From NCBI GenBank assembly GCA_029261275.1, contig JAJDBR010000171.1:1-44551 (forward strand): a stretch of 44,551 nucleotides of DNA, given 5' to 3'. A program made the translations under genes and the position numbers. Positions within the stretch are counted from its first letter, which is position 1. Every line of letters starts with the position of its first letter. The DNA is from Nitrospirales bacterium. Its GTDB lineage: Bacteria; Nitrospirota; Nitrospiria; Nitrospirales; UBA8639. The notes below the pieces were generated by a model. The model worked only from the letters and a program-made list of their open reading frames with translations, did not search any database and had not been told where the DNA came from. This document shows, one piece after another, positions 3,723 to 29,179 of this stretch.

Positions 3723-4085
3723 GTATTCCAGTTCGATGGAAATCTGTGAGATTTCTTTTTTCCCTTCGCCGTGTCATGGGAATGTTCGACCATTCTTATA
3801 TTGCATGAATGGGTTGTGGCGATGAATCGAGATTCCAAGATTCAGGATAGGGATCTCTTGTGCCATCAGGATGTGCCGTATGCCAGGCAGATCAAAATGT
3901 GATGAATTTGGCGGTAGAAAGGGAGGTTATTTTCAGATTTTTATCGAACGAAAACCGCGAAGAGCCTAGGGCTCGTGGCACGAAAAAATTAGTCATTCCA
4001 AAACGTACTTAACATCATTTAAGCGCCGACCAATCCCGTTACCCTCAAGAGTGCTGTCCCAATTTCCCCCATTTGATTATAGCTG
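3723..4085. other. Intergenic region, distal upstream part of the copper oxidase promoter
   Basis: No gene is seen in this stretch. A perfect -24-like TGGCACG occurs near 3977, but the bases at the -12 position are AATTA and not TTGC, so I do not call a promoter there. The rest looks like ordinary non-coding sequence leading to the palindrome at 4086. Confidence 0.4.
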
Positions 4086-4105
4086 GCGTCCAACTAATTG
4101 GACGC
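4086..4105. promoter_or_regulatory. Palindromic candidate enhancer site for a sigma-54 activator
   Basis: A perfect inverted repeat, GCGTCCAA-CTAA-TTGGACGC, lies in non-coding DNA. Its centre is about 198 bp upstream of the transcription start predicted from the sigma-54 promoter at 4266. Activators of this class usually bind as dimers to such palindromes 80-200 bp upstream. Which activator binds is unknown; the PAS-type activator at 1147 is the nearest candidate. Confidence 0.55.
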
Positions 4106-4265
4106 ATAACGCAGTGATTACATTAGCTTGTTTCATGGTCGAGGGTTTGACTGTCCAGACGAGGGGAATATTGAACCCTAGCCAGCTCAGTCTTCACCTT
4201 AACAAATTGCCACCAAAGTCTTACTAGTATTGCTGGTTGTTGTTTCTTGCTTGGGTAGGGCGTTC

Positions 4266-4282
4266 TTGGCATTTAAGTTGCT
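4266..4282 (+). promoter_or_regulatory. Sigma-54 (RpoN) promoter of the multicopper oxidase operon
   Basis: TTGGCATTTAAGTTGCT matches the sigma-54 consensus TGGCACG-N4-TTGC, with the required 10 bases between GG (4268-4269) and GC (4280-4281). Transcription would start at about 4293, some 220 bases before the oxidase start codon. The flanking TCTATT after the -12 element is also shared with the promoter at 18775-18789, which supports a common regulon. Confidence 0.8.
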
Positions 4283-4288
4283 CTATTC

Positions 4289-4380
4289 TTTAGTGCCGAC
4301 ATTGGGAGGGCTGTGATGGACCGGCCTCCGGAATGCCCAACCTCCTGGATTTTACGAGGCTACCCAATGTCGGCGCTAAA
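4289..4380 (+). promoter_or_regulatory. Structured 5' leader formed by an 18-bp inverted repeat
   Basis: Arm TTTAGTGCCGACATTGGG (4289-4306) pairs with CCCAATGTCGGCGCTAAA (4363-4380). All 18 positions pair in RNA, one as G-U. Inside, GCCTC (4324-4328) can pair with GAGGC (4356-4360), and CCGG-CCT-CCGG (4321-4331) is a competing small hairpin. The predicted start site (about 4293) lies inside the first arm, so the mRNA 5' end would be double-stranded from its first base. No T-run follows, so it is not a simple terminator. It may stabilise the message or act as a switch. A small REP/MITE-like insertion is the alternative. Confidence 0.55.
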
Positions 4381-4512
4381 TCTGGAATAAGGATGAACAA
4401 AGTATCAAAAGAACGAGACAAGTAGTGGAAGATTGAGGGCAACAGATAAACGAATTTCATTTTGGTTGGGATTTTTTATTCACCATACGTCTTAGGTAAA
4501 GGAGGCCGGAGT

Positions 4513-7500: not shown

Positions 7501-9393
7501 GATATTCATGCTGTGGAGCGCGTTGGCCATGATGTGGCTGGCAGCTTCCGTGAATTGATGGTGCATATCATGGATACGGTACCGCATACGGTCAATGTGG
7601 TGACGGCAGGGAATCCTCCAGGGCAACCGATTGATGTGGCTTTGGAGGCTGGTCGGACGGTGTCGTTCATTATGCCGCCGAATGACCAAATCAAAATGAC
7701 GCCGATGCCGTTCTTGAACGGTGGAACCCATACAACGGGTGGGGCATTGAATTTCCGGGCCGAGCCTTTCGCACAACGCTTGGCGAACAACCCGGATCCT
7801 TCAAAGATATTCAGCAGCGCGGTGCATGGCGATCCCAGCACGGCCATGATACGGGCCTACTTGGGTGACGCCATCGTGTTTCGTTTGTTGGACGTGACCA
7901 TGAATGAAAGTAATGTGTTCACATTATCCGGTCATACGTTCTTGTCTGAACGCTATGCGCAGGAAGCCAATCGCAAGCATTCGTTGCATATTGGGATTGC
8001 CGAGCGGTATGACCTCGTCATCCCAGAAGCCGGCGGGCCGCGTCATCAAGCCGGAGATTATATGTTCTTTAATGGCCGCAGTTCCAAATTCTCAGAAGGA
8101 TCCTGGGGGCTCATTCGTGTCTTAGACAAATCGGTGGACGATCTCCAACCCTTGCCGAATAAGGCGTATGGGAAAGAGGGGATGCCCGAGAGATTGCCAG
8201 TCTGTCCAAAAGATGCACCAGTGAAAGCGTTTAATGTGGTGGCCATCGATCATCCGGGGATGAGTTTCAACTCCAATGCTCCGGACGCGATCGAAGTTGA
8301 CTTTGAACGGACGATTGAATTACGCAATCCTGAAGCCAAGATTTATGTCCTCGAGGATGAAGTGAAAAAAGTCTCGGGTGATGCGCAGCCCATGCCGTTA
8401 ACCATACGGGCCAACGTGGGCGACTGTCTCAAAGTGAAATTGACGAACAAACTCAAAGAAGGACAAGCGTCGTTCTCAGCGTTTGGGTTGGCGTTTGATC
8501 CCAAAGATTCGCAAGGTGTGAATTTGGGGAATAATGCGGGCGATCAAACGGTTGCCCCTGGGAAGTCCCGGACCTACACCTACTATGCGGATCCTTTCAA
8601 TGGGGAAACGCAAACGTTGGTGTGGGATTGGGGAAATGTGTCCATGAATCCACGTAACGGGTTGTTCGGTGGAGTCATTGTCGGTCCGAAGGGCTCGACC
8701 TACCGTGATCCTAAAACGGGGGAGGACATTTCTCTAAAAAATAGCTGGAATGCTGATGTGATTGTGGATCGAACCATTCAAGGGAATGAAGGTCGAGCCA
8801 ACTATCGGGATGTGGCGTTGTACTTTCAAGATGAGGACAACATCATTGGAACCAGCTTCATGCCGTATGTGCAAAATGTGGCAGGGTTAACCGGTGTGAA
8901 TTATCGTGCTGAACCCTATCTGCATCGTGAAGAAACCGGTTGTTCGTTGGGGCGAATGTTCCAACCCTGTGAAGTGGATAATCCGCAGGATCCCGTCACA
9001 CCAACCATTGAAGCTCATGCTGGCGACAAAGTACGAATTCATGTCTTTGGTGCTAGTAGCGAGCAAAATGGCATGTTCACCGTTGAAAAGCATGAATGGC
9101 CAATCGAACCCTTCTTGCCTGGTGCGGATATGATTAGCACCGTGGAATTCTCAGGTTCGGAAGGCTTAGATGTGTTCTTGCCATCGGCTGGTGGGAAATG
9201 GTCAATGGCTGGCGACTATGTGTGGAGCAATGGTCGGTTACCCTATTCCCAATCGGGACAATGGGGGTATCTCCGGGTATTGCCCAGCACAGACCAACGG
9301 ATTCTGCCGTTGTCCGGTTCCGCGTCTTCAAACAAACAGGCCAAGCTACATGATCTGGGTGCGCCCAAGATCATTCCTACCGTGGCCAAGTAA
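4513..9393 (+). CDS. Giant periplasmic multicopper oxidase, three-unit cupredoxin repeat
   Basis: Start ATG 4513 follows AAAGGAGG; an earlier in-frame start at 4462 has no ribosome site. The product is 1626 aa. An N-terminal signal peptide (hydrophobic stretch, cut near VSA-EE) is followed by a Met/Gln-rich linker. Three repeat units begin with a CPxxA motif near residues 135, 733 and 1231, each built of two cupredoxin-like halves. All four multicopper motifs are present: HxxHxH at 443-448, HCHxxxHxxxxM at 518-529 (type 1 copper with axial Met), HFH at 824-826 and HDH at 955-957. They are spread over units 1 and 2; unit 3 has lost the ligands. A small beta-domain is inserted in unit 2 (about 868-936). 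Size and layout resemble MofA/MnxG/OmpB-type oxidases, some of which oxidise Mn(II) or Fe(II). The true substrate is not known. Confidence 0.9.
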   Translation: MFHGKPTLFTVSAFLALFGGSALWGTPLVVSAEEASSPMVHPVGMNSQSPGWAERLKGQTIVEDAMEGRAERAALVEQQHQRMMQQMQKEMDHKGADTGAFNSMSMIHQYGGGPENGLLASNSNVEPVSMKGGMCPKTAPVRNYDVSAVNVEITLNQWLDYYPGYMYALTEDMDKIRAEEAKNAAAREKEGHNDPGGVKNGIQDQWIQPLVIRGNQGDCVKITLRNKLEFGEEVSLHINGSDMVMSDTGQPALTTNADSVAEEGKTINMEWYIHPETQEGGRQFHTFSNDRELTVMGMFGVFVVEPRGSNYYEPLGTGAATEASSGWQVMIDNGDGPDFREFVLIYHEVGDEAFRPVNKHGDFLPQRDPLTDAYRPGARALNYRSEPFGINNMHVQHEYFGFEDESMAYSSYTFGDAAPTIPRSYLGDPAKFRIVHGGSEVFHSHHPHGGAIRWQRSPRATQMPVWNTGQTGPVKYPVIRTKSDRVDVEVIGPSEALDLETECGSGLCQWLAGDFLFHCHVAHHYVAGMWGYWRVYNTMQVPGMQNDVMPPLRELPDRLDRIHKPVSSDKLVGKTVNWFGKQFKIVGEGKSNWKVEPAVVNIKDWVEMQLSNQGKPGHKDDELGQMKAYDATVMDWVWDGAKAMSEKEPTIGENPKYHPEWQGYKPGERREIRFEPSTGKVAWPWLTPHFGKRVPFSNDHNPAPWLEMVRLNPDGTRSVEPAKPGENGPWSLCPDRAGSQDYNVHFIKLPIELSAAEGDQPAIVDPNGLLYVVHEEEEAVRADNDKKFPLVVRANVYDCIDWTLTSEWLDDDITNFQSSKINTHFHFFQFDNQASDGVISGFSYEQSMRPFTQFDKPTKKGLPIPMNAKVTKAAKAGSKTLQVTNAAQYHVGTPILVGADNVKEKEVRRIVKIDGKTLTFAYPLKFKHPVDEIVTVEYVRQRFWVDADVGSVFWHDHAFGGTTWPHGAVGTMIAEPFGSTWHDPKTGERIRTGPVADIHAVERVGHDVAGSFRELMVHIMDTVPHTVNVVTAGNPPGQPIDVALEAGRTVSFIMPPNDQIKMTPMPFLNGGTHTTGGALNFRAEPFAQRLANNPDPSKIFSSAVHGDPSTAMIRAYLGDAIVFRLLDVTMNESNVFTLSGHTFLSERYAQEANRKHSLHIGIAERYDLVIPEAGGPRHQAGDYMFFNGRSSKFSEGSWGLIRVLDKSVDDLQPLPNKAYGKEGMPERLPVCPKDAPVKAFNVVAIDHPGMSFNSNAPDAIEVDFERTIELRNPEAKIYVLEDEVKKVSGDAQPMPLTIRANVGDCLKVKLTNKLKEGQASFSAFGLAFDPKDSQGVNLGNNAGDQTVAPGKSRTYTYYADPFNGETQTLVWDWGNVSMNPRNGLFGGVIVGPKGSTYRDPKTGEDISLKNSWNADVIVDRTIQGNEGRANYRDVALYFQDEDNIIGTSFMPYVQNVAGLTGVNYRAEPYLHREETGCSLGRMFQPCEVDNPQDPVTPTIEAHAGDKVRIHVFGASSEQNGMFTVEKHEWPIEPFLPGADMISTVEFSGSEGLDVFLPSAGGKWSMAGDYVWSNGRLPYSQSGQWGYLRVLPSTDQRILPLSGSASSNKQAKLHDLGAPKIIPTVAK

Positions 9394-9420
9394 CCCGCAA
9401 CGGGTGATCGGGTGAATGAC

Positions 9421-9457
9421 AAGGCGGGGAAGTCTACAGACTTCCCCGCCTTTTTTT
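9421..9457 (+). terminator. Rho-independent terminator after the multicopper oxidase gene
   Basis: A perfect 15-bp stem (AAGGCGGGGAAGTCT / AGACTTCCCCGCCTT) with a 2-base centre runs into seven T residues. It lies 27 bp past the oxidase stop codon. Downstream genes are thus partly or wholly insulated, and the following cupredoxin gene may have its own promoter or depend on read-through. Confidence 0.93.
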
Positions 9458-9524
9458 ATGAGGGTCTATGTTTCTAAGGAATGTCAAAGAGGATGGATAT
9501 CAATAAATGCTGAGGAGGGAAGCC

Positions 9525-10445
9525 ATGAAGGGCCGAATGTATTGGAAAGGGATACTAGGGGTTGGGCTGTTTGCTCTTTTCGCGCAAACGGCTTGGTCTT
9601 ATGATGAAATCACAGTCACCAATGGCGGCTCGATACAAGGCACCGTGTTGATTGAAGGCGGGAAACCTCGCCCCATGGCCTTCAATTTAGTGACGATTCC
9701 AGATCCGGTGTTTTGTGGGACCATTTCCACTGGAACGGGATGGCGAATTGTGGAGGATTTTATTATTGGGCCGAATAAGACCCTCAAGGATGTTGTGGTG
9801 ATGCTCAAGGGAGTCACCAAAGGCAAATCGTTTGCATTGCCGAAGGTCAGGATTGAGTCTATCGATTGTGATTTTATTCCGTTTGTGAATGTCATCAAAG
9901 ACAAGGATGAAATTGAAGTGGTGAATATGGATCCCGTGGAACATGATATTCAAGGGTATGAAACGGCCAGAGAACGGGGGGCGCGGGTCCTGTTTAATCG
10001 GCCGTTGCCCATGAACCCTTTCCTGGAGTTGGCGGGCATGTTGGGGAAGAAATACATGGCGGGCAAACCCATGGTGGAGAAAATTCATTTACGAAAAGGG
10101 CGGAATGTGTTTGTGATGCAATGTGGGTTTCATCCCTATATGTATTCCTGGGGGTTAGTGGCTGAGAATCCCTATTTTTCCATTACCAAAGAAGATGGGA
10201 AATTTCAGATCACGGATATCCCGCCTGGAGAGTATGTGTTGACGGCCTGGCACCCTGGTGTCAAAACGTTTGTGGAACAAGTGGTGACCGTCAAAGCCAA
10301 CCAAGTGACTTCGGCACCGTTTACCTTTCAGTCGCCGCAGGGTCGGCGGAGCGCGCATGAAATAGAGGACAACCCCCGGTTTGGATTGGAGCTATTGGAA
10401 GAGGGACAAGAAATTATTCCGTCGATCCGGCGACAAATTCCGTAA
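9525..10445 (+). CDS. Secreted cupredoxin-like protein with carboxypeptidase-regulatory-like domain
   Basis: ATG 9525 is chosen because GAGGAGGG lies just upstream; an earlier in-frame ATG at 9507 overlaps that site. The product is 306 aa. A signal peptide (GILGVGLFALFAQTAW) ends near residue 25. Central residues form a cupredoxin-like fold with candidate type 1 copper ligands H140 (VEHDIQ), C200, H203 and M206 (CGFHPYM). A C-terminal carboxypeptidase-regulatory-like beta domain follows (DGKFQITDIPPGEYVLTAWHPG). Two more cysteines occur near 64 and 115. The arrangement is found in predicted periplasmic electron carriers. Its place between a multicopper oxidase and a heme protein suggests it passes electrons to or from the oxidase, but this is inference. 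The C-M spacing (C-x2-H-x2-M) is shorter than in plastocyanin, so copper binding is not certain. Confidence 0.8.
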   Translation: MKGRMYWKGILGVGLFALFAQTAWSYDEITVTNGGSIQGTVLIEGGKPRPMAFNLVTIPDPVFCGTISTGTGWRIVEDFIIGPNKTLKDVVVMLKGVTKGKSFALPKVRIESIDCDFIPFVNVIKDKDEIEVVNMDPVEHDIQGYETARERGARVLFNRPLPMNPFLELAGMLGKKYMAGKPMVEKIHLRKGRNVFVMQCGFHPYMYSWGLVAENPYFSITKEDGKFQITDIPPGEYVLTAWHPGVKTFVEQVVTVKANQVTSAPFTFQSPQGRRSAHEIEDNPRFGLELLEEGQEIIPSIRRQIP

Positions 10446-10574
10446 AAGAGATATGAGCCTTGTTTCCCTTGAGGTTTATGGAAAATTGTGGTTCTAGCAG
10501 GAGATTCTCAAATCTGATTCGATCGGGCTCGAGGTCTTTCCACAGGTTCTGAAGTCGTGAAAGGAGGGGCGGTT

Positions 10575-11180
10575 ATGAACACGAAATGTGGCATTGTCGG
10601 ATTAGTGATGAGTGCCGTCATGTTCTTTGGGTGTCTAGGGATAGCCTTTGCTGCTGAGGAGGAGTTGGAGGTGGACTTCTCCCCTGACGTTGTGGCCAAT
10701 TATATTCATGCGGTGATTGCTGCGGATCGTGCCTTGTATACCACTCATGTTGTGGACCGATTGCAGGAAGAGCGCGTCGTGGTGGCAGCCGAAGCGTGGA
10801 AACAACGCAAGGCGCTTCCTTTGCCAGCACAAATGCTCTTAATGGCTGGGAAGACAGTAGAAATGAGTGGGTCTGGTCTGCGCTTTCGTCTGGCAAGTCT
10901 GTGGCCCATTTATGAGGAAAATGGGCCGAGTAACCTTTTTGAAGAAACAGGATTGAAGGTGGTGGCCGACGACCCCGATGAAGTCTATAGCGGAATTATC
11001 ACCAGAGGGGATAAACGGTTTTTTAAAGCCATTTATGCGGACCGAGCGGTCTCCAAGGCCTGTGTGAACTGTCACAATGGTCATATTTTGAGTGGGAAGC
11101 GAGATTTTAAGTTGGGAGATGTGATGGGTGGGATCATCATTTCTTTCCCACTGCCAATTGAAAAATCAGAACCCCCCTGA
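10575..11180 (+). CDS. Monoheme c-type protein of the Tll0287/DUF3365 family
   Basis: Start ATG 10575 follows AAAGGAGGGGCGG; the frame opens at GTG 10557, but that would place the ribosome site inside the gene. The product is 201 aa. A Sec signal peptide (hydrophobic core, cut near AFA-AEE) is followed by a helical N-terminal half and a PAS-like fold typical of DUF3365. One heme-binding CxxCH is present: C163, C166, H167 (CVNCH). Members are secreted or periplasmic heme proteins thought to sense or transfer electrons. It follows the cupredoxin-like gene and ends in its own strong terminator. It probably belongs to the same redox module as the multicopper oxidase. No second heme motif is seen. 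Confidence 0.85.
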   Translation: MNTKCGIVGLVMSAVMFFGCLGIAFAAEEELEVDFSPDVVANYIHAVIAADRALYTTHVVDRLQEERVVVAAEAWKQRKALPLPAQMLLMAGKTVEMSGSGLRFRLASLWPIYEENGPSNLFEETGLKVVADDPDEVYSGIITRGDKRFFKAIYADRAVSKACVNCHNGHILSGKRDFKLGDVMGGIIISFPLPIEKSEPP

Positions 11181-11208
11181 CTTGTAGAACGGTCTCTTTC
11201 TACATAAG

Positions 11209-11252
11209 AAAAAAGGCGATGGCGTATTCCATATATGCCATCGCCTTTTTTT
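11209..11252 (+). terminator. Rho-independent terminator after the heme protein gene
   Basis: Stem GGCGATGGC (11215-11223) and GCCATCGCC (11237-11245) with a 13-base AT-rich loop, preceded by A6 and followed by seven T residues. The A-run and T-run can extend the stem and would also allow termination from the opposite strand. Confidence 0.92.
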
Positions 11253-11439
11253 ATGTAACAGCAAACTGATCCTGTAACCTCTGAACGTGAAAAGATCTTC
11301 AAGCCCCTTGGAATTCTAAGATAAAAGGAAGATTCCTGAAATCAAGCTTGGCAGGCTCGTGAAGTTTGCCCCCCTCAAAACGGAGAAGTGGATCACACAA
11401 CAAACGGTGATGCCGATGCCCGAGCGGAGGCCCTAACCG

Positions 11440-11787
11440 CTACGGGCAAGTGACGTACCCTAGAGCATCTTCTTCAGTTGCATAGATCGGGATTACCTCC
11501 ACAAGATTTTCCCAATCTAGACGGGTTCGAACATATAGCGTGGGGTTCACAATACTGATCTGCACATGGCGGGGTTGCAATTCGTCGTACCAGAGAGACA
11601 ATTCTCTTAAGCTCGTCGAGTCAACCTCCAATACGTCAGAGAAATCCAGGATGACGTGATGACAGCCCATCTCAACAGCTCTCAAGAGCTGACCTTGAAG
11701 CCTTTGGGTCGTACGACGATTGAACTGACAGCCAAGAGCAAAGACTTTCGTCGGGTGTTTTGACTGATGCTCACAATCTTGCAGCAT
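11440..11787 (-). CDS. STAS-domain protein (anti-anti-sigma-factor-like)
   Basis: 115 aa, made almost entirely of a STAS domain: a beta-strand start (VFALGCQFNRRTT), a helix, and the typical switch region ILDFSDVLEVDSTSLREL, with the phosphorylatable Ser in the DST(S) position. The C-terminal part has further helices. In anti-anti-sigma factors of the SpoIIAA/RsbV kind the Ser is phosphorylated by a partner kinase. No kinase or phosphatase gene is next to it, so its partner lies elsewhere. It is a lone minus-strand gene at the edge of the accessory region. A ribosome site AGAGG lies about 13 bases upstream of the ATG. Confidence 0.75.
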   Translation of the reverse strand: MLQDCEHQSKHPTKVFALGCQFNRRTTQRLQGQLLRAVEMGCHHVILDFSDVLEVDSTSLRELSLWYDELQPRHVQISIVNPTLYVRTRLDWENLVEVIPIYATEEDALGYVTCP

Positions 11788-11877
11788 AGGATCTACCTCT
11801 GGGTTATAAAAGGGGAGTGGTGTTATCCCATAGTGAACCTGTTTGAGCGGAGAGTAACCATTCTCCGATAGCGGTAG

Positions 11878-12177
11878 GTGAAAACATGTAAGCCCTTATG
11901 TTGTCATTCAAACATGCAACAACTGCCCACATTGAGGCTCAAACGAGGACTCTCTTTTTGTGCCTTGGGTGTGATGGCAGGGATTTATGCGGTATCGTTA
12001 GTCCGGTTGGAGGCGGGAAAATTTGATCCCCGTCTCTCACCCTTGCGCAAACTGGCGCAGGCATTGGAGGTGAGCGTCTGTGACTTGATTGATCAACCCT
12101 TCACCAAAGGAAGTGAGGCACATGGGAGTCGTACCACGAAAAGACGGGTGGTACGTAGAGTTTCGAGTAGTGGATGA
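11878..12177 (+). CDS. XRE-family HTH regulator, associated with an integrase
   Basis: A small protein of 99 aa from GTG 11878; ATG 11914 is also possible and would trim 12 residues. The core LRLKRGLSFCALGVMAG...LVRLEAGKF...LRKLAQALEV is a Cro/CI-type helix-turn-helix. Its last 56 bases overlap the start of the integrase remnant at 12122. This is a common arrangement in which a regulator gene is coupled to its recombinase gene. The tail after DLIDQPF is basic and may be a by-product of the overlap. It is intact by eye, although its partner integrase is destroyed. Confidence 0.7.
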   Translation: MKTCKPLCCHSNMQQLPTLRLKRGLSFCALGVMAGIYAVSLVRLEAGKFDPRLSPLRKLAQALEVSVCDLIDQPFTKGSEAHGSRTTKRRVVRRVSSSG

Positions 12178-13193
12178 TGCCAAAGTATTGTCGTTATCTC
12201 CAGGTGAGGCAATAAGAAGAATGAAACGATAGAAGACGGGACCCACCAATAAAACTGTGATTAAGCCATGGGAAGAAAAAAATAAAACGGATCTGTCAAT
12301 GGAGGGGAAATCATTTTCATGCGGCAAGGTGATGAGTTTTGAAGAGTGGGGGAACGGTATTTGAAATTTGAAGAAATGAGGAGCCTTCGTTTTTATCAAG
12401 ATCGGGTGGAGATTGTTCGATTACAACGTATTCCTTTCTTCCGTTCTAGGGCTTTGTAACGAAATAAAATCCGAACATGTTGAATTCTATCGCCAATAAC
12501 CGAAATTCAGAAATGGCAAAATGCCGAGTCTTTAAAGGTTCAACGATGATCATACCATGTTAAAGCATGTGTTGAGTGTTGCTGTGCGTAGGGGACTGCT
12601 CGAAGTGAATGTTGCGAAGAAAGTCAGAATGCTTGATCCAAATGGAGTCGGGTATATTCTATAATAATGCTGAAACTTGGCCTAAACCTATCTTATTTAT
12701 AGCCTATCAACTGGGTATGCGGTTAGGGGAAATTTTAAATTTAACGTGGGACCAAGTTGACTTACAACGAGGTTGTATCACCCTCTTCGAAAGAGACACA
12801 AAAAATGGCCTAGCTCGTGTGGTTCCTCTGACAGTGAGCGTTTGTCCTGCTCTTGCCGACTTATTCAAGGCTAGGAGTCTATGAACCAATAAGATAGTTT
12901 TGTATAATGGCCGTTGGGTTGGTTCGGCTGAAAAGGCGTGTAAAACCTCTTTGAAGGATGCTGGGATTGAAAACTTCCGTTTCCATGATCTGAGGCATTG
13001 TGCTGCAACGAACCTTCGTAGGGCAGGGGTGGATCCCGTTACGGCAATGAAGATTGTGGGTCACAAATCTGAAAGAATGTACAAGCGGTATAATAACGTC
13101 AATGACAAGGACTTGCTTAAGGCTTCCGCCATGCTTAAGACACTAATAACACCTTCGATTCCTTCTTCGATGCTGGGATCTGTAACATGTTGA
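12122..13193 (+). pseudogene. Decayed tyrosine recombinase (phage-type integrase)
   Basis: The N-terminus reads MGVVPRKDGWYVEFRVVDD from ATG 12122 behind GTGAGG. The frame meets TAG at 12230-12232 where relatives have Trp (KRWKTG), then continues in the same frame. It shifts near 12350 (one G appears lost in a G-run), giving RYLKFEEMRSLRFYQDRVEI, and stops again at 12457. A damaged core-binding part follows (MLKHVLSVAVRRGLLEVN). The catalytic part is readable in two frames: Arg in GMRLGEILNLTWDQVDL (frame at 12609-12884), then HDLRH, GHKS and MYKRY (frame at 12900-13193). All catalytic motifs survive but no continuous frame exists. It points at tRNA-Arg, 11 bp away. Confidence 0.9.
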
Positions 13194-13204
13194 AAACATT
13201 GGCT

Positions 13205-13281
13205 GCCCCCGTAGCTCAGTTGGATAGAGCAGCGGTTTCCTAAACCGCGGGCCGCACGTTCAATTCGTGTCGGGGGCACCA
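13205..13281 (+). tRNA. tRNA-Arg (anticodon CCT)
   Basis: A full cloverleaf can be drawn. The acceptor stem GCCCCCG pairs with CGGGGGC. The D arm is GCTC/GAGC. The anticodon stem GCGGT/ACCGC carries loop TTCCTAA with anticodon CCT. The T arm is GCACG-TTCAATT-CGTGT. A discriminator A and an encoded CCA end follow. It is 77 nt. The gene is flanked on both sides by recombinase remnants pointing at it, so it has probably been an integration target. Confidence 0.97.
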
Positions 13282-13295
13282 AATTTTTCAAGGAC

Positions 13296-14138
13296 TTACG
13301 CAGCATTTCCCGCCTCAGCCTTCGCGGCAATTCCGGTTATTGTCACGGTTGAGATTGAAACGACAGTATCTTTGACCTCTAAAACTCCCCCTCCTTTCTG
13401 TGTAGGTTCTCCATTCCCAAAGCTTGAGACTTCCTCGACCGCCTCTTTGAGGTAGTTGGGGCTTAAGTGGGCATACCGGCGCACTAAGTTCGTCGTCGAA
13501 TGTCGGAGTAACGCGGCAATGGTGACCAGTGGGACACCCTGCATGGCGAGACGACTGGCTAAGGTGTTCCGTGCTTCAATGACTATCGTTTGGTTTTCTT
13601 TCCATAATACTTTGTTATCGGAATATCGTTTCATTTCTGCACTCACAACCACGAAGGGAACAAGTCTTCCACCCTCTTTTTTGCGACTAATACGAGACCC
13701 ACACTGCTTCATGTGAAAGGTCACGAGAGCATCATGTCGTTTTTGTGTTGTGAGATTCGAATCAGGGCGGACTTCAATTGAGTCAAAATGATTGGCGTCT
13801 TTTAAAGTCTCCAATAAATTTTGAGTGAATATTTTTTTACATGAAAAACTTTCCCCTTTTGGGGAAATCGATTTTGCGATTTCTCTGTCCAATGATTCGT
13901 GATGAGAGCTGACAATGGCATCACCAAATGCACCGCCTATCTCATGAGACCTACGAGGATCTTTCGTGCTCTTATCGATATAGGTAAAATTGGGATCGCC
14001 ATTCACAACAATAGCTAAATTCTTTATCTTGGAGGATTCTTCTGCATCAAGCCTCACATAAGAAGTCCCTTCTGCGCAGCTAAAAAGAAATAGGGCGATC
14101 ATTATACAACTCAAAATTCTATTTGCTCTCCAGAACAC
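13296..14138 (-). CDS. Chimeric gene: lipoprotein fused to an integrase C-terminal fragment
   Basis: From GTG 14138 behind CAGGAGGG, the product is 280 aa. Residues 1-21 are a lipoprotein signal (IMIALFLFSC, lipobox Cys about 21), and residues up to about 189 look like a periplasmic lipoprotein of unknown family. From residue 190 (about 13571) the sequence becomes the tail of a tyrosine recombinase: RNTLASRLAMQGVPLVTIAA, LLRHSTTNLVRRYAHLSPNY and LKEAVEEVSSFG. The normal HxxR box is missing and the usual Gly before the catalytic His is Arg, so it cannot be an active recombinase. It ends 14 bp from tRNA-Arg. The likely cause is a deletion joining an island integrase to a lipoprotein gene. The N-terminal part may still be expressed. 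Confidence 0.7.
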   Translation of the reverse strand: MFWRANRILSCIMIALFLFSCAEGTSYVRLDAEESSKIKNLAIVVNGDPNFTYIDKSTKDPRRSHEIGGAFGDAIVSSHHESLDREIAKSISPKGESFSCKKIFTQNLLETLKDANHFDSIEVRPDSNLTTQKRHDALVTFHMKQCGSRISRKKEGGRLVPFVVVSAEMKRYSDNKVLWKENQTIVIEARNTLASRLAMQGVPLVTIAALLRHSTTNLVRRYAHLSPNYLKEAVEEVSSFGNGEPTQKGGGVLEVKDTVVSISTVTITGIAAKAEAGNAA

Positions 14139-14244
14139 GCAGCTACCCTCCTGTTTGGAAAATCATTCTTTTATAAGATTATGGCGCGTGTATCGTATCA
14201 CTGGTACTCGACTTCTGTCGCTCATTTCCTGATCTCATCATGTC

Positions 14245-14676
14245 CTAAAGTGTTTTCGCCAATCTCTTAAAGACCTTGGCGTGGTGCTCGTGAATGATTT
14301 GGGCCATGGTTGCACTCCTTTTGCCTTCTAAAAGAGGCGGCAGAATTTTTGCGAGTGCCAGCACGGCCTTCATAATGACCGTCTCTCGCCTGATCACTTC
14401 GGCGTCGACCTCCTCCCTTACGACTAGCACTCCCTCTGCAATTTCGCGCTCACGAATTAATTTTAAGGCGCGTTCTTTTGGGAAGACGGTATCCCAATAT
14501 CGTCCTTCGTCGGCTGGCTTTTGTTTCCGTTCCTCATTGCGCTTGGCAGTAAAAATGGCCTTGACCTTTCCTTGGTCAATCTTGCCGTTCGTCCTCATAT
14601 CATGCCCGGCCTTTTCATATCGATAGATCGTTGAACGCGAAATTTGTTTAGGCTGCACCTTTGTCTGTTGTGTCAT
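14245..14676 (-). CDS. Phage DNA-packaging (terminase small subunit, Nu1-like) protein
   Basis: 143 aa. The N-terminus is a winged-helix-like DNA-binding start (ISRSTIYRYEKAGHDMRTNGKID) followed by a charged region and a helical C-terminus (RETVIMKAVLALAKILPPLLEGK). The layout matches small terminase subunits of the Nu1 kind, which bind cos/pac DNA and deliver it to the large subunit. No large terminase, portal or capsid gene is nearby, so this is a phage remnant. It sits directly downstream of a second, frameshifted gene of similar type on the same strand. The family call is from pattern and order; a general DNA-binding accessory protein is possible. Confidence 0.55.
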   Translation of the reverse strand: MTQQTKVQPKQISRSTIYRYEKAGHDMRTNGKIDQGKVKAIFTAKRNEERKQKPADEGRYWDTVFPKERALKLIREREIAEGVLVVREEVDAEVIRRETVIMKAVLALAKILPPLLEGKRSATMAQIIHEHHAKVFKRLAKTL

Positions 14677-14770
14677 GTGTCACCCTAAAAAATAAAAACT
14701 GCGGTCACCAAGAATTGGACTTTTCGCAAGGCACCTGCATGCCTCCCCTAGGAAGGGCCTGTCACAGGTC

Positions 14771-15261
14771 TTAGGCATCGGCAACTTCATGAAATTTCAA
14801 GCTGTCTAAGGCTTTGGCTAATTCTTCCTTAATCAATCGTGCCACCTTGCGTTCATCTGAAATCCCAACAACGGCAGGGGCCACCCGCTTGGCCGTGGCT
14901 AACACCCGATCTCTTGTCACATGCACCTTTTCAAAAATAAGGTTTTTCACAAACTCCGCGTCCATGGCTTGCCCTATTTTTTTTGGAGTTCCAATTCCGC
15001 CATGTCGGCTTCGGCAATTTCTCGGCGGGTACGGGCTTCTTGCCATTTTTCATCGTTCTTTTTGTCCTTATTCGAACGAGCAGAGACATTGGCGTTGTCT
15101 TCCCATTGCTGCATTACATCAGGCCATTTAAACTTTCCATTTTTTCTTTTAGCGATGTGCCCTTGTTTTTCCGCAATAGTTACCGCAGCACGGCTACGAT
15201 TACTGCGCCTCGCCAATTCAGCCGCAATGATCCATTCAGTCGTTGGTGTTTTCTGCTTCAC
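14771..15261 (-). pseudogene. Phage Nu1-like packaging protein interrupted at an A8 run
   Basis: Frame one starts at GTG 15261 and gives TTEWIIAAELARRSNRSRAA, then a basic linker, then EARTRREIAEADMAELELQKK, ending in TAG at 14974-14976. Frame two continues the same protein: IGQAMDAEFVKNLIFEKVHV, then DRVLATAKRVAPAVVGISDE and a C-terminus at 14771. The break falls exactly in a run of eight A (minus strand) before the stop; one more A restores a single frame of about 164 aa. Together the parts have the length and order of a Nu1-type small terminase subunit: HTH, linker helix, oligomerisation region. It may be a true mutation, a sequencing or assembly indel, or a slippage site. Confidence 0.65.
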
Positions 15262-15534
15262 AACCTATTGCTTTTGTTAAAGACTTTTTTTGCCTCTGTG
15301 TAAATAAATGGTGCGCTCCCGAGGCACCCATCAGGCAGGGGGCGCCAAAAGGACCCATAAATACGGACAGAGCGTCCATAGCTGTTCGTTAAGAGCTCAA
15401 CGACCTACAGCACAATCATTACTTCACCAAGGGGAGGGGAGGGAGGTCCGAAAATTTGGTTTGTTCTCCGTGCCAAGCCCCCAACTTGGTTTCATTCGGG
15501 AGAAGAAAGTTTCTACGCCGAATATGATTGGTAT

Positions 15535-15900
15535 TTGCCTGGGCCGTATGGACAATTTAGTGGCACGAATGTAGAAGTAGAAAGGGGGCATCGAAAAGTT
15601 GACCGCCAACAATTAATTGGCTTTGGCCCTATGGGGTTCCAATTAAGAACCACAGCAGTGGAATGTGGGTCTTTGACTTCTTCATGGTTTTACCCCACAG
15701 GTGTCAGCTTTCTGGTAGAGTCAAATTTTGATCATGAACTCCAATTGGCGCCGACCCAATGGACGGAACTGTCCCAAATCAATCTGCGGGATCTCATCTG
15801 GTACCGATACAATGAGTGCCAGCAAGAGACCTTCATTCCCCTCAAAGAGCTGCCATCAGCTTCAGGCAATAGTGCAAATAGCGGAGGGGGAACCGAGTAA
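15535..15900 (+). CDS. Hypothetical protein, start uncertain
   Basis: From TTG 15535 the frame gives 121 aa, but it is open back to a stop at 15379-15381, and the upstream stretch also looks coding (rich in Trp, Tyr and Phe, for example KIWFVLRAKPPTW). There is no ATG or GTG in the open upstream part. Hence either the start codon was lost or the gene is a remnant that began further upstream. The middle is hydrophobic and aromatic with no recognised motif; the C-terminus ends in a Ser/Asn/Gly-rich tail. No function is assigned. It lies between the phage remnant and the decayed small-gene zone. Confidence 0.4.
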   Translation: MPGPYGQFSGTNVEVERGHRKVDRQQLIGFGPMGFQLRTTAVECGSLTSSWFYPTGVSFLVESNFDHELQLAPTQWTELSQINLRDLIWYRYNECQQETFIPLKELPSASGNSANSGGGTE

Positions 15901-16016
15901 CGCATTAAAAAAGTAAGTGGGGTCATTGCTTGACTTGACATATCATTTCCGGTAGCCGTTCGCTCCTATGGCTCCTTGAAGTCAAGCCTCAATCGTCGCA
16001 CCAGAATATTGAGATT

Positions 16017-16187
16017 ATGCGGGGGGTGGCTGGTGCTGAGAAACTGAACGACTATGATGCGTATGGAGCCGTTCCTCCGCCATTGAAGTGTATCCTCAAG
16101 GTGGCCGGGCCATGGGAACGCCATGCGCTGGCATCTAAGAGGCGGTACTTCGTCTCATGGTGGATGTGTTGTTTAATGTGGACATGA
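16017..16187 (+). CDS. Short open frame, possible gene remnant
   Basis: 56 codons from ATG 16017; the frame is open back to 15939. The peptide has a plausible coding look (LNDYDAYGAVPPPLKCILKV followed by a basic stretch), but it has no ribosome site and ends abruptly in a Trp/Cys-rich tail. I recognise no family. It is most likely the middle of a decayed gene. Confidence 0.25.
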   Translation: MRGVAGAEKLNDYDAYGAVPPPLKCILKVAGPWERHALASKRRYFVSWWMCCLMWT

Positions 16188-16347
16188 CCTCCAAGCATTT
16201 CCTTCGGCTGAGGCACGCGTAGATCGAGACAACGTAATCGATGGTGTGAAATTCACATTCCTGCTTCTCCAGCCATGTTAAGGAAGGTTTTTCGATTTCA
16301 GGTGACGCTCTAATTGTCCGATATAGAGGGGTAAAGGAGGTTCCCCT

Positions 16348-16434
16348 ATGAAAACCTACTCTCTCCCTCTCTTTCTCACGAGCCTTTTGTTTCTCTGCAC
16401 CGAGATCCTTGTAAGACGGTATACGCATGATTAG
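16348..16434 (+). CDS. Small secreted or lipoprotein-like peptide (28 aa)
   Basis: ATG 16348 follows a very strong ribosome site, GTAAAGGAGG, seven bases before the start. The peptide begins like a signal sequence (MKTYSLPLFLTSLLFLC, Cys 17 as possible lipobox) and stops after RRYTHD. Either it is a real small membrane-targeted peptide or the start of a lipoprotein gene truncated by mutation. The ribosome site is the main evidence. No terminator or partner gene is seen. Confidence 0.35.
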   Translation: MKTYSLPLFLTSLLFLCTEILVRRYTHD

Positions 16435-16644
16435 CGAAGGTGTTTGAGCAGCGTACCATCACCGTTTGTGGTCACGCTGGAATAGGGCGTTCGCGACCTC
16501 CAGACTTTGGCCCTCGATCCTGAACACACCCTTCCTTCTCTCCTGAGGAATATTCTTTCCCGTCCTCTCTAGATGTAATACCAAACGGCCTAATCTACCT
16601 GCCCCAGAAGGAACCTGCTGACCAACATATCCGGTGGGGCCGCT

Positions 16645-16965
16645 ATGAGAACAGTCATCACAGGCAAAATCTATCGCACTCCCACCGCACATTTGATTGT
16701 GACGTTGCCGAGCCACTTTCCCGAAATCGATAAGCAATGGAACAAATCTCGGTTGTATCGGAACCAACAGGGCGCGTGTTTTTTGGCAGGGGAAGGCGGG
16801 GCCCTCTCACGATGGGCGACAATCACTCTGCACGAGGCTATCGCAGGAGAGGGCTTAGAGCCCATATCCAAAGACAAAGACCTGCCTATGAGAAATATAC
16901 CGGGCTTTCGCCAGACAGGTTTTCACGAGCCGGGTTTCCACGAGAGGAGGGATATAGGCTATTAG
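16645..16965 (+). CDS. Hypothetical protein, C-terminal part probably decayed
   Basis: 106 aa from ATG 16645. Residues 1-78 look coding, with a compact pattern (WNKSRLYRNQQGACFLAGEG followed by GALSRWATITLHEA) that resembles small proteins often found on mobile elements. Residues after about 78 become low in sense, with a short duplicated phrase (TGFHEP/PGFHER from a small direct repeat near 16919-16943), suggesting frameshift and decay. A minus-strand frame covers the same DNA but has no better features. Function is unknown. Confidence 0.35.
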   Translation: MRTVITGKIYRTPTAHLIVTLPSHFPEIDKQWNKSRLYRNQQGACFLAGEGGALSRWATITLHEAIAGEGLEPISKDKDLPMRNIPGFRQTGFHEPGFHERRDIGY

Positions 16966-17217
16966 ACGGTTAAGAGATTCAGGAGGATCGGGTGATTGGC
17001 CGGACGATCTAGAAATTAGAATGGCCTGCACGATTCTATTGTAGTAGGGAAACGATGTGTGTGGGTAAGACTTTTAGAGGTTGAGGCCACGTGGCATTTT
17101 CTTTTTTCATCTTTTGGTGTGGGGGCCTACTGGTAATTTCTCAAAATCCAGTTGCGAAGCTAATCCCCAAGGGATAATAATACATTTCATTGACCCACTA
17201 GGAAGGAGGATGTCGTC

Positions 17218-17376
17218 ATGTCTATTTTTCCTATGTTCTTCCCCATACCCACCAGACTCTCTTACCTCGCTTTCACCTTGATGATTTGTCTAGGGGGAAC
17301 GATGTTACTCGCGGAGGGTTGCGTGAAGCAGCCCAAATGGGAACCGACTCTAGGTGTCTCCCAAAATGGGGATTGA
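17218..17376 (+). CDS. Small lipoprotein-like peptide (52 aa)
   Basis: ATG 17218 follows GGAAGGAGG with good spacing. The 52-aa product has an N-terminal hydrophobic region (LSYLAFTLMICLGGTMLL) and a Cys at position 35 (LLAEGC) that could be a weak lipobox, followed by a short polar tail (VKQPKWEPTLGVSQNGD). Known enterobacterial entericidin-like peptides have a similar plan, but I do not claim membership. A TGGCATT near 17092 upstream is followed by TTTC and not TTGC at the -12 distance, so I do not call a sigma-54 promoter. Confidence 0.5.
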   Translation: MSIFPMFFPIPTRLSYLAFTLMICLGGTMLLAEGCVKQPKWEPTLGVSQNGD

Positions 17377-17552
17377 GTTTGGACTTGTTTCCTAATGAGA
17401 GAGAAATCTGACATTTCTCACCCTTACCCTGGTATTCATAACGCTGGCTCTCGGTGGAAAATTGAATGTCTAGCGCTTCCTAAGCTTAACGGGGCCCTGA
17501 AAATCAGGTGACCAAGGTTCCTGATTCCATCACGGGGACAGGCTGCGTTCAT

Positions 17553-17777
17553 TTATCGGTCTTCATGACTGAACGATTGAAGCACAATGTCTAAAGCTTG
17601 CCCACAGTCCAAGCATCGCACTCCGGCTTTGGTGCGACACACCCATAGAATGTTATGGCCACATCCCAGACAATACACATCTCCTGGGCCATTGAAACGA
17701 TAAAAAAACGTCGGGGAAAGTGTCCCCCAAACCCCTCCGGTTTCGATGAGAGACCAGGCGCGCGTGTCGGCAAGCAT
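17553..17777 (-). CDS. Small zinc-ribbon-like protein (74 aa)
   Basis: Two CxxC pairs frame a short insert: CLGCGHN and, after a 13-residue loop containing one more Cys, CLDCGQ. This spacing fits a rubredoxin-like or zinc-ribbon knuckle that holds Zn or Fe. A Trp/Phe-rich N-terminus precedes it. The ATG at 17777 has AAAGGA about 13 bases upstream. It is the second gene of a tiny minus-strand operon after the 28-aa membrane peptide (36 bp gap), both behind the sigma-54 promoter at 17940. Function is unknown; a regulatory or redox role is possible. Confidence 0.6.
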   Translation of the reverse strand: MLADTRAWSLIETGGVWGTLSPTFFYRFNGPGDVYCLGCGHNILWVCRTKAGVRCLDCGQALDIVLQSFSHEDR

Positions 17778-17813
17778 TGATTCTGGTCCTTTCTTTACGA
17801 TGGGAGTTGGTGT

Positions 17814-17900
17814 TCAGTGTTCCTCGCTCCAAATAAGATGCAGCGAGAAGACTACCCCAAACGCTGTCAAAGTTAAGATGCTGAGTAGTATCCAATCCAT
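17814..17900 (-). CDS. 28-aa single-span membrane peptide
   Basis: ATG at 17900 is preceded by AAGGAGG with an 8-base spacer. The peptide reads MDWILLSILTLTAFGVVFSL followed by HLIWSEEH, which is one transmembrane helix with an acidic tail. It is first in a two-gene unit with the zinc-ribbon protein. The predicted sigma-54 start (about 17928) gives a 28-base leader that just holds the ribosome site, a very consistent layout. It is too short for most gene callers. Function is unknown; small single-span peptides often tune a larger membrane complex. Confidence 0.65.
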   Translation of the reverse strand: MDWILLSILTLTAFGVVFSLHLIWSEEH

Positions 17901-17939
17901 GATGAAGTCCTCCTTGTTCTGCTCTTGCTTCTTGATAAA

Positions 17940-17954
17940 GCAACCTTAATGCCA
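17940..17954 (-). promoter_or_regulatory. Sigma-54 promoter of the 28-aa peptide/zinc-ribbon unit
   Basis: On the minus strand TGGCATTAAGGTTGC has GG and GC with exactly 10 bases between. The predicted start is about 17928. The same 15 bases recur without change at 18775-18789, and TGGCATT...GTTGCT is shared with the copper oxidase promoter. Confidence 0.8.
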
Positions 17955-18090
17955 GTTCAGTTCTCGCCCGAGCCTCACCCATCACGATTCTGCCAACTGC
18001 TTGATTGATTAAAAGAAACAGAGGATTGGGGGAAACGATGTGCGTCCCTACTCATGAACCGGAAAGTATCGGAACGGATACACGATCGTC

Positions 18091-18133
18091 TCTCATTTCA
18101 AAATAGCGGGATCAATTTGAAGGATTACAAATT
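18091..18133 (-). promoter_or_regulatory. Candidate enhancer (UAS) for the promoter at 17940
   Basis: Two blocks, TCTCATTTCAAAA (18091-18103) and TTGAAGGATTACAAAT (18117-18132), lie about 163 and 189 bases upstream of the predicted start. The same blocks recur at 161 and 188 bases from the start in the copy at 18924-18966, while bases between promoter and blocks have diverged more. This is the distance at which sigma-54 activators bind. Confidence 0.45.
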
Positions 18134-18186
18134 ATTGTGCATCAAGAAGGTGAAGAGGTGTTGGGGGATGGAGGTCCAAGATATCC

Positions 18187-18294
18187 AGGAGGATCGGGTG
18201 ATGTGGGCCAGATGATCTCGGCATTTGGAGGATCTGAGTACATGACTTGAGTCATGATCCAACACATCACAGCGGTGGGCATTGATGTGTTTGG
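18187..18294. other. Gene-family remnant and two nested inverted repeats
   Basis: CAGGAGGATCGGGTGAT at 18187 recurs at 16980, where it starts a peptide remnant of the kind seen intact at 19016. The area also holds the perfect palindrome CATGACT-TG-AGTCATG (18241-18256) and, right after it, CCAACACATCA (18259-18269) pairing with TGATGTGTTTGG (18283-18294, one bulge). No T-run follows either. These could form a bipartite RNA structure or be protein sites. The flanks 17955-18090 and 18295-18442 show no further gene. Confidence 0.35.
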
Positions 18295-18442
18295 CAATTT
18301 ACGCCGCACTGGGAGCAAGCCACAAGAGAAGCCGAACAACTGTCCCCTGACGAATCAAATTGATGATAATCGGCGAGGCACATGCAGGAATGACTCTTGG
18401 AGCATCATACCGGGTATTTCTAAAATGAGATGCTGCCAAAGC

Positions 18443-18697
18443 CTAACCCAGGGTAAGTGTAAATGGGCCCCGGGACCGTTGAAAGGGTTCAGGTACGGCT
18501 AGTCTTGCCTGCATCGTCAGTTGGTAAGGATGCATTTCCGGAACGACTTCATGGCGGTTGTTCGCTATCGCCCTAGAAAGACCAAAATAGACGGTTCTTG
18601 CAGCTTCCGACCACTGAGGGTCAAAGGGCGATCCCTTGAACGCGGCTTCTGCCGCTTTTTTTTCATCATACGTTAACGGTCGATAATCTTGTTGCAT
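18443..18697 (-). CDS. Small conserved-looking hypothetical protein (84 aa)
   Basis: ATG 18697 has an excellent ribosome site (AGAAGGAGGTGGACA). The protein is soluble and begins YRPLTYDEKKAAEAAFKGSP, with FDPQW and later TVYFGLSRAI. The first half reads like a compact helical domain, and the second half has His/Pro/Arg residues. I recognise no named family. It is controlled by the sigma-54 promoter at 18775, predicted start 18763, leader about 66 bases. Its control region is the sister copy of the one before the 28-aa peptide, so the two units are probably activated together. Confidence 0.65.
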   Translation of the reverse strand: MQQDYRPLTYDEKKAAEAAFKGSPFDPQWSEAARTVYFGLSRAIANNRHEVVPEMHPYQLTMQARLAVPEPFQRSRGPFTLTLG

Positions 18698-18774
18698 TGT
18701 CCACCTCCTTCTACTCTAGGATGAACTCTAAAAATTATGTGATCTCAGATGACTTCCTTCTCGTTTTTAATAGA

Positions 18775-18789
18775 GCAACCTTAATGCCA
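18775..18789 (-). promoter_or_regulatory. Sigma-54 promoter of the 84-aa protein gene
   Basis: Minus-strand TGGCATTAAGGTTGC followed by TCTATT, with GG-N10-GC spacing. It is identical over 15 bases to the promoter at 17940 and shares the downstream TCTATT with the copper oxidase promoter. The predicted start is about 18763. Confidence 0.82.
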
Positions 18790-18923
18790 TGTCAGACTTT
18801 CATCTGAGCGCTTCACCGCTCTGCTACGAATAGGCTGATTTAATGAAAGAAAAAGAGAGGGTAGGGGAAAGGGGAACTGTTATGTCTCAAAAACTTGGAG
18901 GAATCGGAGGATCCATGATCGAA

Positions 18924-18966
18924 TCTCATTTCAAAAACGGCAGGAGTGGGTTGAAGTATTACAAAT
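18924..18966 (-). promoter_or_regulatory. Candidate enhancer (UAS) for the promoter at 18775
   Basis: TCTCATTTCAAAA (18924-18936) and TTGAAGTATTACAAAT (18951-18966) repeat the two blocks of copy A with one mismatch, at nearly the same distances from the start. They overlap a plus-strand decayed reading frame, so coding ancestry may also explain part of the conservation. Confidence 0.45.
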
Positions 18967-19122
18967 CTTATCACCTTCAACTCCGGCATTGAAGAACATG
19001 GCGGTGGTCCTTCACAACATGGCCTCAGTGCCGACCATGCCATGAGACTCTTAGGCAGAACAATTCAGTTCTTGGATTCGGGCAAGCCGTCTGCGAACAA
19101 GATGCCTGAGGCGAATGCCTAG
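18955..19122 (+). pseudogene. Remnant of a small gene family (SADH...TIQ motif), copy 1
   Basis: The open frame lacks a start codon with a ribosome site. Its end reads LSADHAMRLLGRTIQFLDSG followed by KPSANKMPEANA. The same pattern returns at 19687-19839, and as shorter relics near 16982 (with a stop in place of the Gln) and 18187. An ATG upstream at 18881 gives an N-terminal stretch in another frame (MSQKLGGIGG), so a frameshift probably split an older gene here. Function is unknown. Confidence 0.45.
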
Positions 19123-19234
19123 TGCTTGATTCAAAATCTCCCATTTTCTTTGGGATTTGGGGCCAGGTGAAGCCTTAGAGTCTTAGTGCTTTTTGGGGAC
19201 CACCTTGCGAATCGGGCTCAACCACCCGTCTTGC

Positions 19235-19669
19235 TCATGAGAAAGGATCTTTGGCTGTCTGCACAATATTTTGGAAAATGTGGTCGAGGGCTTTTGTTGT
19301 CGCCAGACCTTTATCGTGGCGTATATCAAAAATTACAGAATTTCTTGACGTGTTGCTTTTTTTGACGCAGTTGGCAACCTTACATCCGATAACAATCCTT
19401 TGAAATATATCGTAAACCGTAACCGTATACGATGAGCTTAAATCTTTAAAGTCAAAGGTTTCTGCCCCACCTCCCGGACCACGACACCTGTATTTGACTC
19501 TCGTCCCTACCGAAAAGGCGGCCATCGAACAAGTATTCTCATCCAAATATGAGGAGAGGAAACCAATAGTGTCTTGAAAAGACGGTCCACTCGATTGTGC
19601 TTGGAGCGGCGCACTTGGACAGAGTAAAAGACCCAAAGCCAGTCCAATAATATAGAGACGAATGCTCAA
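19235..19669 (-). CDS. Secreted hypothetical protein (144 aa)
   Basis: It starts at TTG 19669 with CAGGAGAG about 10 bases upstream. A clear Sec signal peptide (LYIIGLALGLLLCPSAPLQA, cut before QSSG) gives a mature protein of about 120 aa. The mature part holds four cysteines (in DENTCS, KYRCRG, VIGCKV and ANCVKK), which may form two disulfides, and beta-strand-like segments (YTVTVYDIFQRIVIG). No family is recognised. It is probably periplasmic. It stands alone between two remnants of the SADH...TIQ family. Confidence 0.6.
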   Translation of the reverse strand: MSIRLYIIGLALGLLLCPSAPLQAQSSGPSFQDTIGFLSSYLDENTCSMAAFSVGTRVKYRCRGPGGGAETFDFKDLSSSYTVTVYDIFQRIVIGCKVANCVKKSNTSRNSVIFDIRHDKGLATTKALDHIFQNIVQTAKDPFS

Positions 19670-29116: not shown

Positions 29117-29179
29117 GGTGGTCAGAAAAAATACTCGTTTGTTGGGTTGTGAGTTTTTAATAATCATTTTTTGAGCCAC

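Follow-up and report, generated by a model that had tools for sequence, protein, structure and literature searches.

Sigma-54 promoters conform to a 16-base consensus, TGGCAY-N5-TTGCW, with GG at −24 and GC at −12 (N10 spacing). Systems that combine such a −24(GG)/−12(GC) box with an enhancer-binding protein (EBP) and IHF have a distant palindrome upstream and an IHF-like site between the two. To our knowledge, regulation in uncultured marine nitrite oxidisers has been little studied. In the PrsK-PrsR regulon, a sigma-54 motif and an upstream activator motif precede many scattered operons and PEP-CTERM genes are the expected PrsR targets; there, motif 1 ends in TTTACA and precedes the sigma-54 motif by a mean distance of 62.8 nt (Haft 2006, PMC1569441). 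RhpR of Pseudomonas syringae, a member of a different phylum, binds exactly the inverted repeat GTATC-N6-GATAC, and the excerpts of that work describe neither RhpR as a sigma-54 activator nor a sigma-54 box with the site (PMC4191427). As judged from titles and abstracts, the literature retrieved with GTATC-N6-GATAC comprises only work on or around RhpRS, whereas the partial texts retrieved for Nitrospira with sigma-54 and EBP contain no description of a regulon like the one proposed here.

We analyzed a 44,551-nt contig (the window, to which positions refer unless another contig is named) from the genome assembly of a Nitrospirales bacterium (G000; 283 contigs, 90.31% complete). The organism is a relative of marine nitrite oxidisers, and its genome presumably belongs to UBA8639, the family of Nitrospira lineage IV (PMC12342949). 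Two units encoded on the minus strand, unit A (17553-17954) and unit B (18443-18789), adjoin in the window. We consider it about 75% probable that they are part of a sigma-54/EBP regulon of very small genes, working as follows. At some 110-120 bp upstream of the promoter, an AAA+ activator would bind GATAC/GTATC half-sites spaced by roughly one turn of the helix, which in the G000 lineage are adjoined by two further conserved blocks. IHF or a similar protein would bend the DNA at about −52, and the activator would open the sigma-54 RNA polymerase bound at TGGCATTAAGGTTGCT. The unit A transcript would encode a membrane peptide of 28 aa as well as a CxxC zinc ribbon, and the unit B transcript an 84-aa protein. 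The control region of unit B would probably come from a unit of the type of A, or of a third copy named unit C, via duplication or promoter capture.

The arrangement of box, IHF-like site and distant palindrome is that of the sigma-54/EBP systems with IHF, but the genes are very small and all 16 bases of the box, including the spacer, are nearly fixed. Units A and B share with the PEP-CTERM regulon a repeated motif pair, and the window encodes prsR and a prsK-like gene. The upstream motif differs, being GTATC-N6-GATAC about 110-120 nt before the box, and G000 shows no PEP-CTERM match. The repeat is identical to that of the RhpR regulon, for which the excerpts describe no sigma-54 box. As assessed by sequence comparison, close relatives of G000 keep much of the layout. 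A fixed promoter-IHF-enhancer layout offers a searchable signature for genes that are too small for routine annotation.

A sigma-54 box before small genes

The first-pass annotation of this DNA reported the same sigma-54 box before both small units, which proved correct. TGGCATTAAGGTTGC is identical upstream of the two units, and the promoter TGGCATTAAGGTTGCT occupies 17939-17954 in unit A and 18774-18789 in unit B, both on the minus strand. When the window was searched with the 15-base pattern TGGCATTNANGTTGC, allowing at most one mismatch, three matches were found, all exact, at 4267(+), 17940(-) and 18775(-), compared with a mean of 0.05 matches in dinucleotide shuffles of the window. The latter two both correspond to TGGCATTAAGGTTGC. 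Both boxes have GG at −24 and GC at −12 with N10 spacing and reach the maximum score of 14.5, in a window containing 8 boxes scoring at least 13 per 44.5 kb on both strands. Transcription starts are predicted at 17928 (unit A) and 18763 (unit B).

Genome-wide, TGGCATNNNNNTTGC occurs at 20 sites in G000 and at 2 in the reversed control. Three of the 20 are units A, B and C, and only these precede such small genes. Four overlap long reading frames, one is upstream of a multicopper oxidase, and others are upstream of genes that we take to encode FlgB-like (flagellar), FliL-like, Hcp-like and exported proteins. The box is thus not specific to small genes (3/20 sites). The box that had been assigned to the copper oxidase, at 4267(+), is sigma-54-like, but there is no GATAC or GTATC half-site in 3961-4290; no activator shared with the copper oxidase is therefore indicated, and we do not assign the oxidase to this regulon.

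Between this box and the multicopper oxidase gene there is a long hairpin (4284-4389) with a 17-bp uninterrupted stem; the folded stretch has an energy of −47.9 kcal/mol, a value without shuffle control, and no Rfam match. Across 3900-19600, Rfam identified no RNA family besides a tRNA. In the segment 13205-15261, which looks like the remnant of an integrated element, a tRNA gene is followed by reading frames that presumably resemble the end of a tyrosine recombinase and proteins of phage packaging.

For comparison, we assembled 23 units: 19 loci encoding the zinc ribbon, from 14 of the 20 genus genomes including G000 (which has two), and four loci encoding the 84-aa protein, which were chosen for carrying this sigma-54 box. 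All 19 ribbon loci have a sigma-54 16-mer scoring at least 13.5 (maximum 14.5), located 177-242 bases ahead of the matched ribbon stretch. Exact TGGCATTAAGGTTGCT is present in eight of them, and in 12 of the 23 units when the four 84-aa units picked for their box are included.

Putative IHF sites were scored against the consensus WATCAANNNNTTR. Unit A has a putative site at 17994-18006 (minus strand), which matches at 13/13 positions and starts at −52, while the weak site of unit B (18828-18840, minus strand) matches at 11/13 and is found at −51. Of the 19 ribbon loci, 18 have their best match to this consensus at −50 to −53, as have 22 of the 23 units overall. Scores of at least 12/13 are reached in 17/23 units, and a score of 12 is reached in 106/2300 shuffles.

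Distant palindrome and outer blocks

That a conserved element exists far upstream was recognized in the first-pass annotation, which nevertheless missed both the IHF-like site and the GTATC-N6-GATAC repeat beside one of its two blocks (block 2). In unit A, this repeat and a third half-site with one mismatch form a putative activator-site array at 18066-18092 (minus strand). Unit B has a degraded GATAC/GTATC array at 18901-18925 (minus strand), in which, reading by eye, each half-site has one mismatch and one spacing is shortened. Among the ribbon units, 13/19 have GTATC-N6-GATAC with at most one mismatch about 110-120 bp ahead of the promoter, the repeat starting 125-138 bases before it. The remaining six have two mismatches, L103 at another place, and three of them (L111-L113) have both arms changed symmetrically to GTACC/GGTAC. 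A palindromic site thus recurs upstream of several operons (unit A, unit C and relatives) and is degraded in unit B. None of the four 84-aa units, including unit B, has the repeat within two mismatches, their best versions having three to four. Because of this, and because the array in unit B is degraded even though its blocks and promoter are intact, the activator of the 84-aa units may be another one or may have changed.

G000 contains 11 GTATC-N6-GATAC sites, against one in the control (the repeat being a palindrome, one strand was counted). Four of them (those of units A and C, and two in tandem on contig C75) have a sigma-54 box scoring at least 13 within 260 bp, whereas two have a box of 12.5 and five have 11.5 or less. 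Seven of the 11 are without a strong box, which means that a repeat can stand without one behind it. This would fit an RhpR-like two-component response regulator, not itself a sigma-54 activator, that binds the repeat, as RhpR does, and modulates these promoters, while a separate activator acts via the blocks. We regard such a division of labor as improbable, considering that a sigma-54 box follows the repeat at a narrow distance in the ribbon units and at several further loci of the genus, and that the units have an IHF-like site between the two, the usual layout for an EBP.

Across the genus, a search for the repeat followed by TGGCA at a distance of 98-128 gave 25 listed matches in 15 of the 20 genomes and none with the reversed control. 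The sequence continues as TGGCA-N6-TTGC in 14 of 27 site-plus-TGGCA pairs, where 1 in 256 is expected for each. When the five ribbon units that had suggested the pattern are removed, 9/22 still continue to TTGC, and by our reading these nine fall into five ortholog groups. The genes behind the genus sites include several for exported-looking proteins, one with an M6-peptidase match and one with a DUF4892 match below cut-off. In one relative (G007), a CxxC-ribbon gene is followed by genes for an ABC-type substrate-binding protein and a sensor kinase, and a second array separates these from the gene for a PAS-type regulator; the last of these genes occur in the same order on contig C103 of G000. 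Within this conserved substrate-binding protein/kinase/PAS-regulator gene order, GATAC arrays are located at L251 5677 and at L270 2862 and 7433. Order-wide, the repeat is present in 61 of 97 genomes, with 126 matches against 3 in the controls (summed, with some sites double-counted). These matches were counted without reading the downstream boxes, and sigma-54 control is therefore claimed for the genus only.

The exported proteins and the sensor-kinase operon behind like sites in relatives suggest a response to an envelope or surface signal as the role of the regulon. A wider reading, which we offer as tentative, is that of a Nitrospirales-wide sigma-54 activator with an alternating GATAC/GTATC enhancer. 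It would control micro-proteins (26-28-aa membrane peptides, CxxC ribbons and helical-pair proteins with an RPLT motif) together with the sensor-kinase operon and exported proteins as an envelope-response regulon of nitrite oxidisers, in which one lineage gained the two blocks and the 84-aa gene took a copied enhancer.

These blocks lie farther upstream, on the minus strand. In unit A, block 2 is at 18091-18103 (TTTTGAAATGAGA) and block 1 at 18117-18132 (ATTTGTAATCCTTCAA); in unit B, a two-block pattern search and column comparison place them at 18924-18936 and 18951-18966, respectively. They had been described as equally spaced in the two units, which is accurate, with 163/189 bases in unit A and 161/188 in unit B, provided that "start" means the predicted transcription start and not the start codon. 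The block-to-promoter gap is 136 (A), 134 (B) and 135 (C). Because the first-pass annotation had picked the blocks for their agreement between A and B, that agreement is no test of them, and independent checks come from two other loci. The two-block pattern has three matches in G000 and none in the reversed control, the third being unit C, in which a further exact TGGCATTAAGGTTGC at C283:5630 and a block pair at C283:5780 are arranged as in A and B, before a paralog of the unit A ribbon. Unit C was also recovered by plain BLAST of unit B. With this copy on C283, the proposal does not founder on a lack of further genomic copies. The other check is L096 from genome G002, which was retrieved via its ribbon and keeps 14/16 and 13/13 positions of the blocks. 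Of the 23 units, the only ones seen to have the blocks are the three of G000 and, with small differences, L096 of G002. By this comparison, they are a lineage-specific outer part of the control region. We rejected a coding origin of the blocks, because unit A spaces them one base differently from units B and C, so that the plus-strand frame running through both is not kept.

Ancestry of the control region and the small proteins

In an alignment of units A, C and B, invariant columns amount to 15/16 in block 1, 13/13 in block 2 and 16/16 in the promoter. They drop to 18/26 in the rest of the array, 13/22 in the IHF-like region, 11/38 in the leader and 23/152 far upstream. As first noted from the sequence of two units, promoter and blocks have outlasted the spacers, with 44/45 invariant columns compared with 2/13 between the blocks, 23/53 from array to IHF-like site and 9/35 from there to the promoter.

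The upstream region of unit B aligns best with those of A (score 50), C (62) and L096 (63), and scores 20-28 with the regions before seven orthologous 84-aa genes; shuffled A upstream sequence reaches at most 12.5 against it. Percent identity of the aligned columns does not discriminate (77-78 vs 72-78), and the closeness of B to A/C therefore rests on alignment score. Given this affinity to A/C and not to its own orthologs, the equal spacing in A and B is probably inherited, and thus partly a matter of ancestry. The same affinity, and the paralogy of units A and C, whose ribbons are 45% identical, would also be expected if the identical promoter and blocks were simply a duplication remnant, without any selection on a switch. 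That explanation seems to us very unlikely, given that the spacers have diverged (9/35 and 23/53 invariant) while blocks and promoter keep 44/45 columns, and that promoter and GTATC-N6-GATAC are kept in relatives differing in other upstream sequence. The layout was probably copied and then kept while the spacers diverged, rather than assembled twice. Selection on an activator-controlled switch, as first proposed, is supported in part, by the conserved sigma-54 promoter and distant site and by the further genomic copy. These comparisons suggest that, within a single genome, a gene acquired an enhancer-promoter region copied from elsewhere.

The three predicted reading frames are all present in the window, on the minus strand: a 28-aa hydrophobic peptide (17814-17900) and a 74-aa CxxC...CxxC zinc-ribbon-like protein (17553-17777) in unit A, and the 84-aa protein, with an RPLTxDExKAAEAAFKG motif (18443-18697), in unit B. 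No start of a 28-aa-type peptide was seen in unit B, though the promoter remains. Pfam and NCBIfam returned no family at cut-off for the 84-aa, ribbon, 28-aa and related 48-aa ribbon proteins. For the ribbon, pN/pS was 0.13 in a group of six relatives and 0.18 in a group of five (excluding both G000 units, L096, L103, L106 and L111-L113), and for the peptide it was 0.22 and 0.31 in two groups of seven relatives (excluding both G000 units, L096, L103 and L104). These values indicate that the related peptides and ribbons in relatives are under purifying selection. The A-versus-C ribbon value of 0.83 indicates weak constraint, with pS near saturation. There are stops within six of the 19 ribbon matches, which in L096, L103, L111 and L113 are inside the ribbon. 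Unit C and L096 have a peptide unlike that of the rest of the family, and L104 and L073 one with early stops, with the promoters being kept.

The 84-aa protein has a predicted N-terminal helical pair, modeled confidently, and a low-confidence tail (mean pLDDT 70.8), and a PDB sequence search gave three weak hits, with E values of 0.02 or worse. With a pN/pS of 0.40 over four sequences, or 0.34 without the copy in the window, it is under purifying selection by this measure. Together with the peptide and ribbon, it represents short-protein families with evidence of selection that are open to testing. Its relatives were found in named records that include NPIRA01-04 and 06, OFTM and UBA8639 genomes, which places the organism in the Nitrospirales. 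A box scoring at least 12.5 precedes 30 of 37 short members of the family and none of 17 long members (Fisher p 7e-9). The two groups and the threshold were set once the table had been seen, and a short locus with too little upstream sequence was omitted. The exact 16-mer is present in five of the 30 boxed short members. Orthologs in G017, G013 and G012 have it too, with different upstream sequence. Short RPLT-family genes with sigma-54-like boxes also occur in L182 and L183, records titled Nitrospinota.

Most other boxed short members have boxes like those of a second sigma-54 class in the same genus, consisting of L045 (G000 contig C229, about 14.6-15.2 kb) and 18 relatives. This class encodes similar small proteins (a 48-aa CxxC ribbon and an 82-aa RPLT protein) behind a box of the GGYAY-N5-TTGC type and a distant site. 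The latter differs from that of units A and B, being TGTC-N7-TTAAC about 120-130 bases before the box in 19/19 loci examined, which points to another activator.

Candidate activators

G000 has 18 matches of the AAA+ activator type that exceed 290 bits, three of them in the window. The AAA+ activators of this genome include a GlrR-like one. PrsR (29171-30562) is clearly present, scoring 603.3 against the TIGR02915 cut-off of 502.6. If PrsR were the activator, units A and B would be part of a PEP-CTERM/exopolysaccharide regulon. In keeping with this, a PrsK-like kinase precedes PrsR, although its score of 230.3 does not reach the cut-off of 300, a nearby gene resembles the chain-length and tyrosine kinase families of XrtA systems without reaching either cut-off, and block 1 contains TTTGTAAT, reminiscent of the published PrsR motif ending in TTTACA. 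However, PEP-CTERM matches number 0 in G000 and 25 in the relative G007, and the distant site was not found before the PEP-CTERM genes that were read. Among 26 loci, one was unreadable and two were repeats, leaving 23 distinct readable genes (22 from G007, one from G009), for which the stretch read ahead of the best box was no longer than 180 bases. None has a GTATC-N6-GATAC pair, and isolated half-sites are present at three loci. The test is weak because few of these genes had a sigma-54 box (one scoring at least 13 at only six loci, overlapping the start at one of them), and one locus had almost no upstream sequence. PrsR as the activator is thus not supported by this indirect comparison, drawn from PEP-CTERM genes almost all of one relative, and we consider it improbable. 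The window's PrsK, PrsR and chain-length/tyrosine-kinase genes had no homolog in 20 fetched regions from relatives; instead, a homolog of the window reading frame 11440-11787, which we take to be STAS-like, is present in 7 of the 15 relative regions with a detected ribbon.

In the regions around the 18 AAA+ candidates, paired half-sites were found, besides unit A, near C103 and C186. On C103, GTATC-N6-GATAC is in the operon encoding the ABC-type binding protein, kinase and PAS-type regulator, and the AAA+ gene faces this operon; in G007, these three genes are in the same order and no AAA+ gene was seen beside them. Contig C283, which carries unit C, begins with an activator fragment. On C186 (L261, 2413-4275), an AAA+ activator gene is followed by GATAC-N6-GTATC just past it, then by a weak sigma-54-like box, CGGTATCTCCTTTGCT (12.5), and a gene for a 67-aa CxxC protein. 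From this arrangement, the C186 AAA+ gene is a candidate activator for these sites. In its product, what is presumably the usual GAFTGA loop reads GAFTNA.
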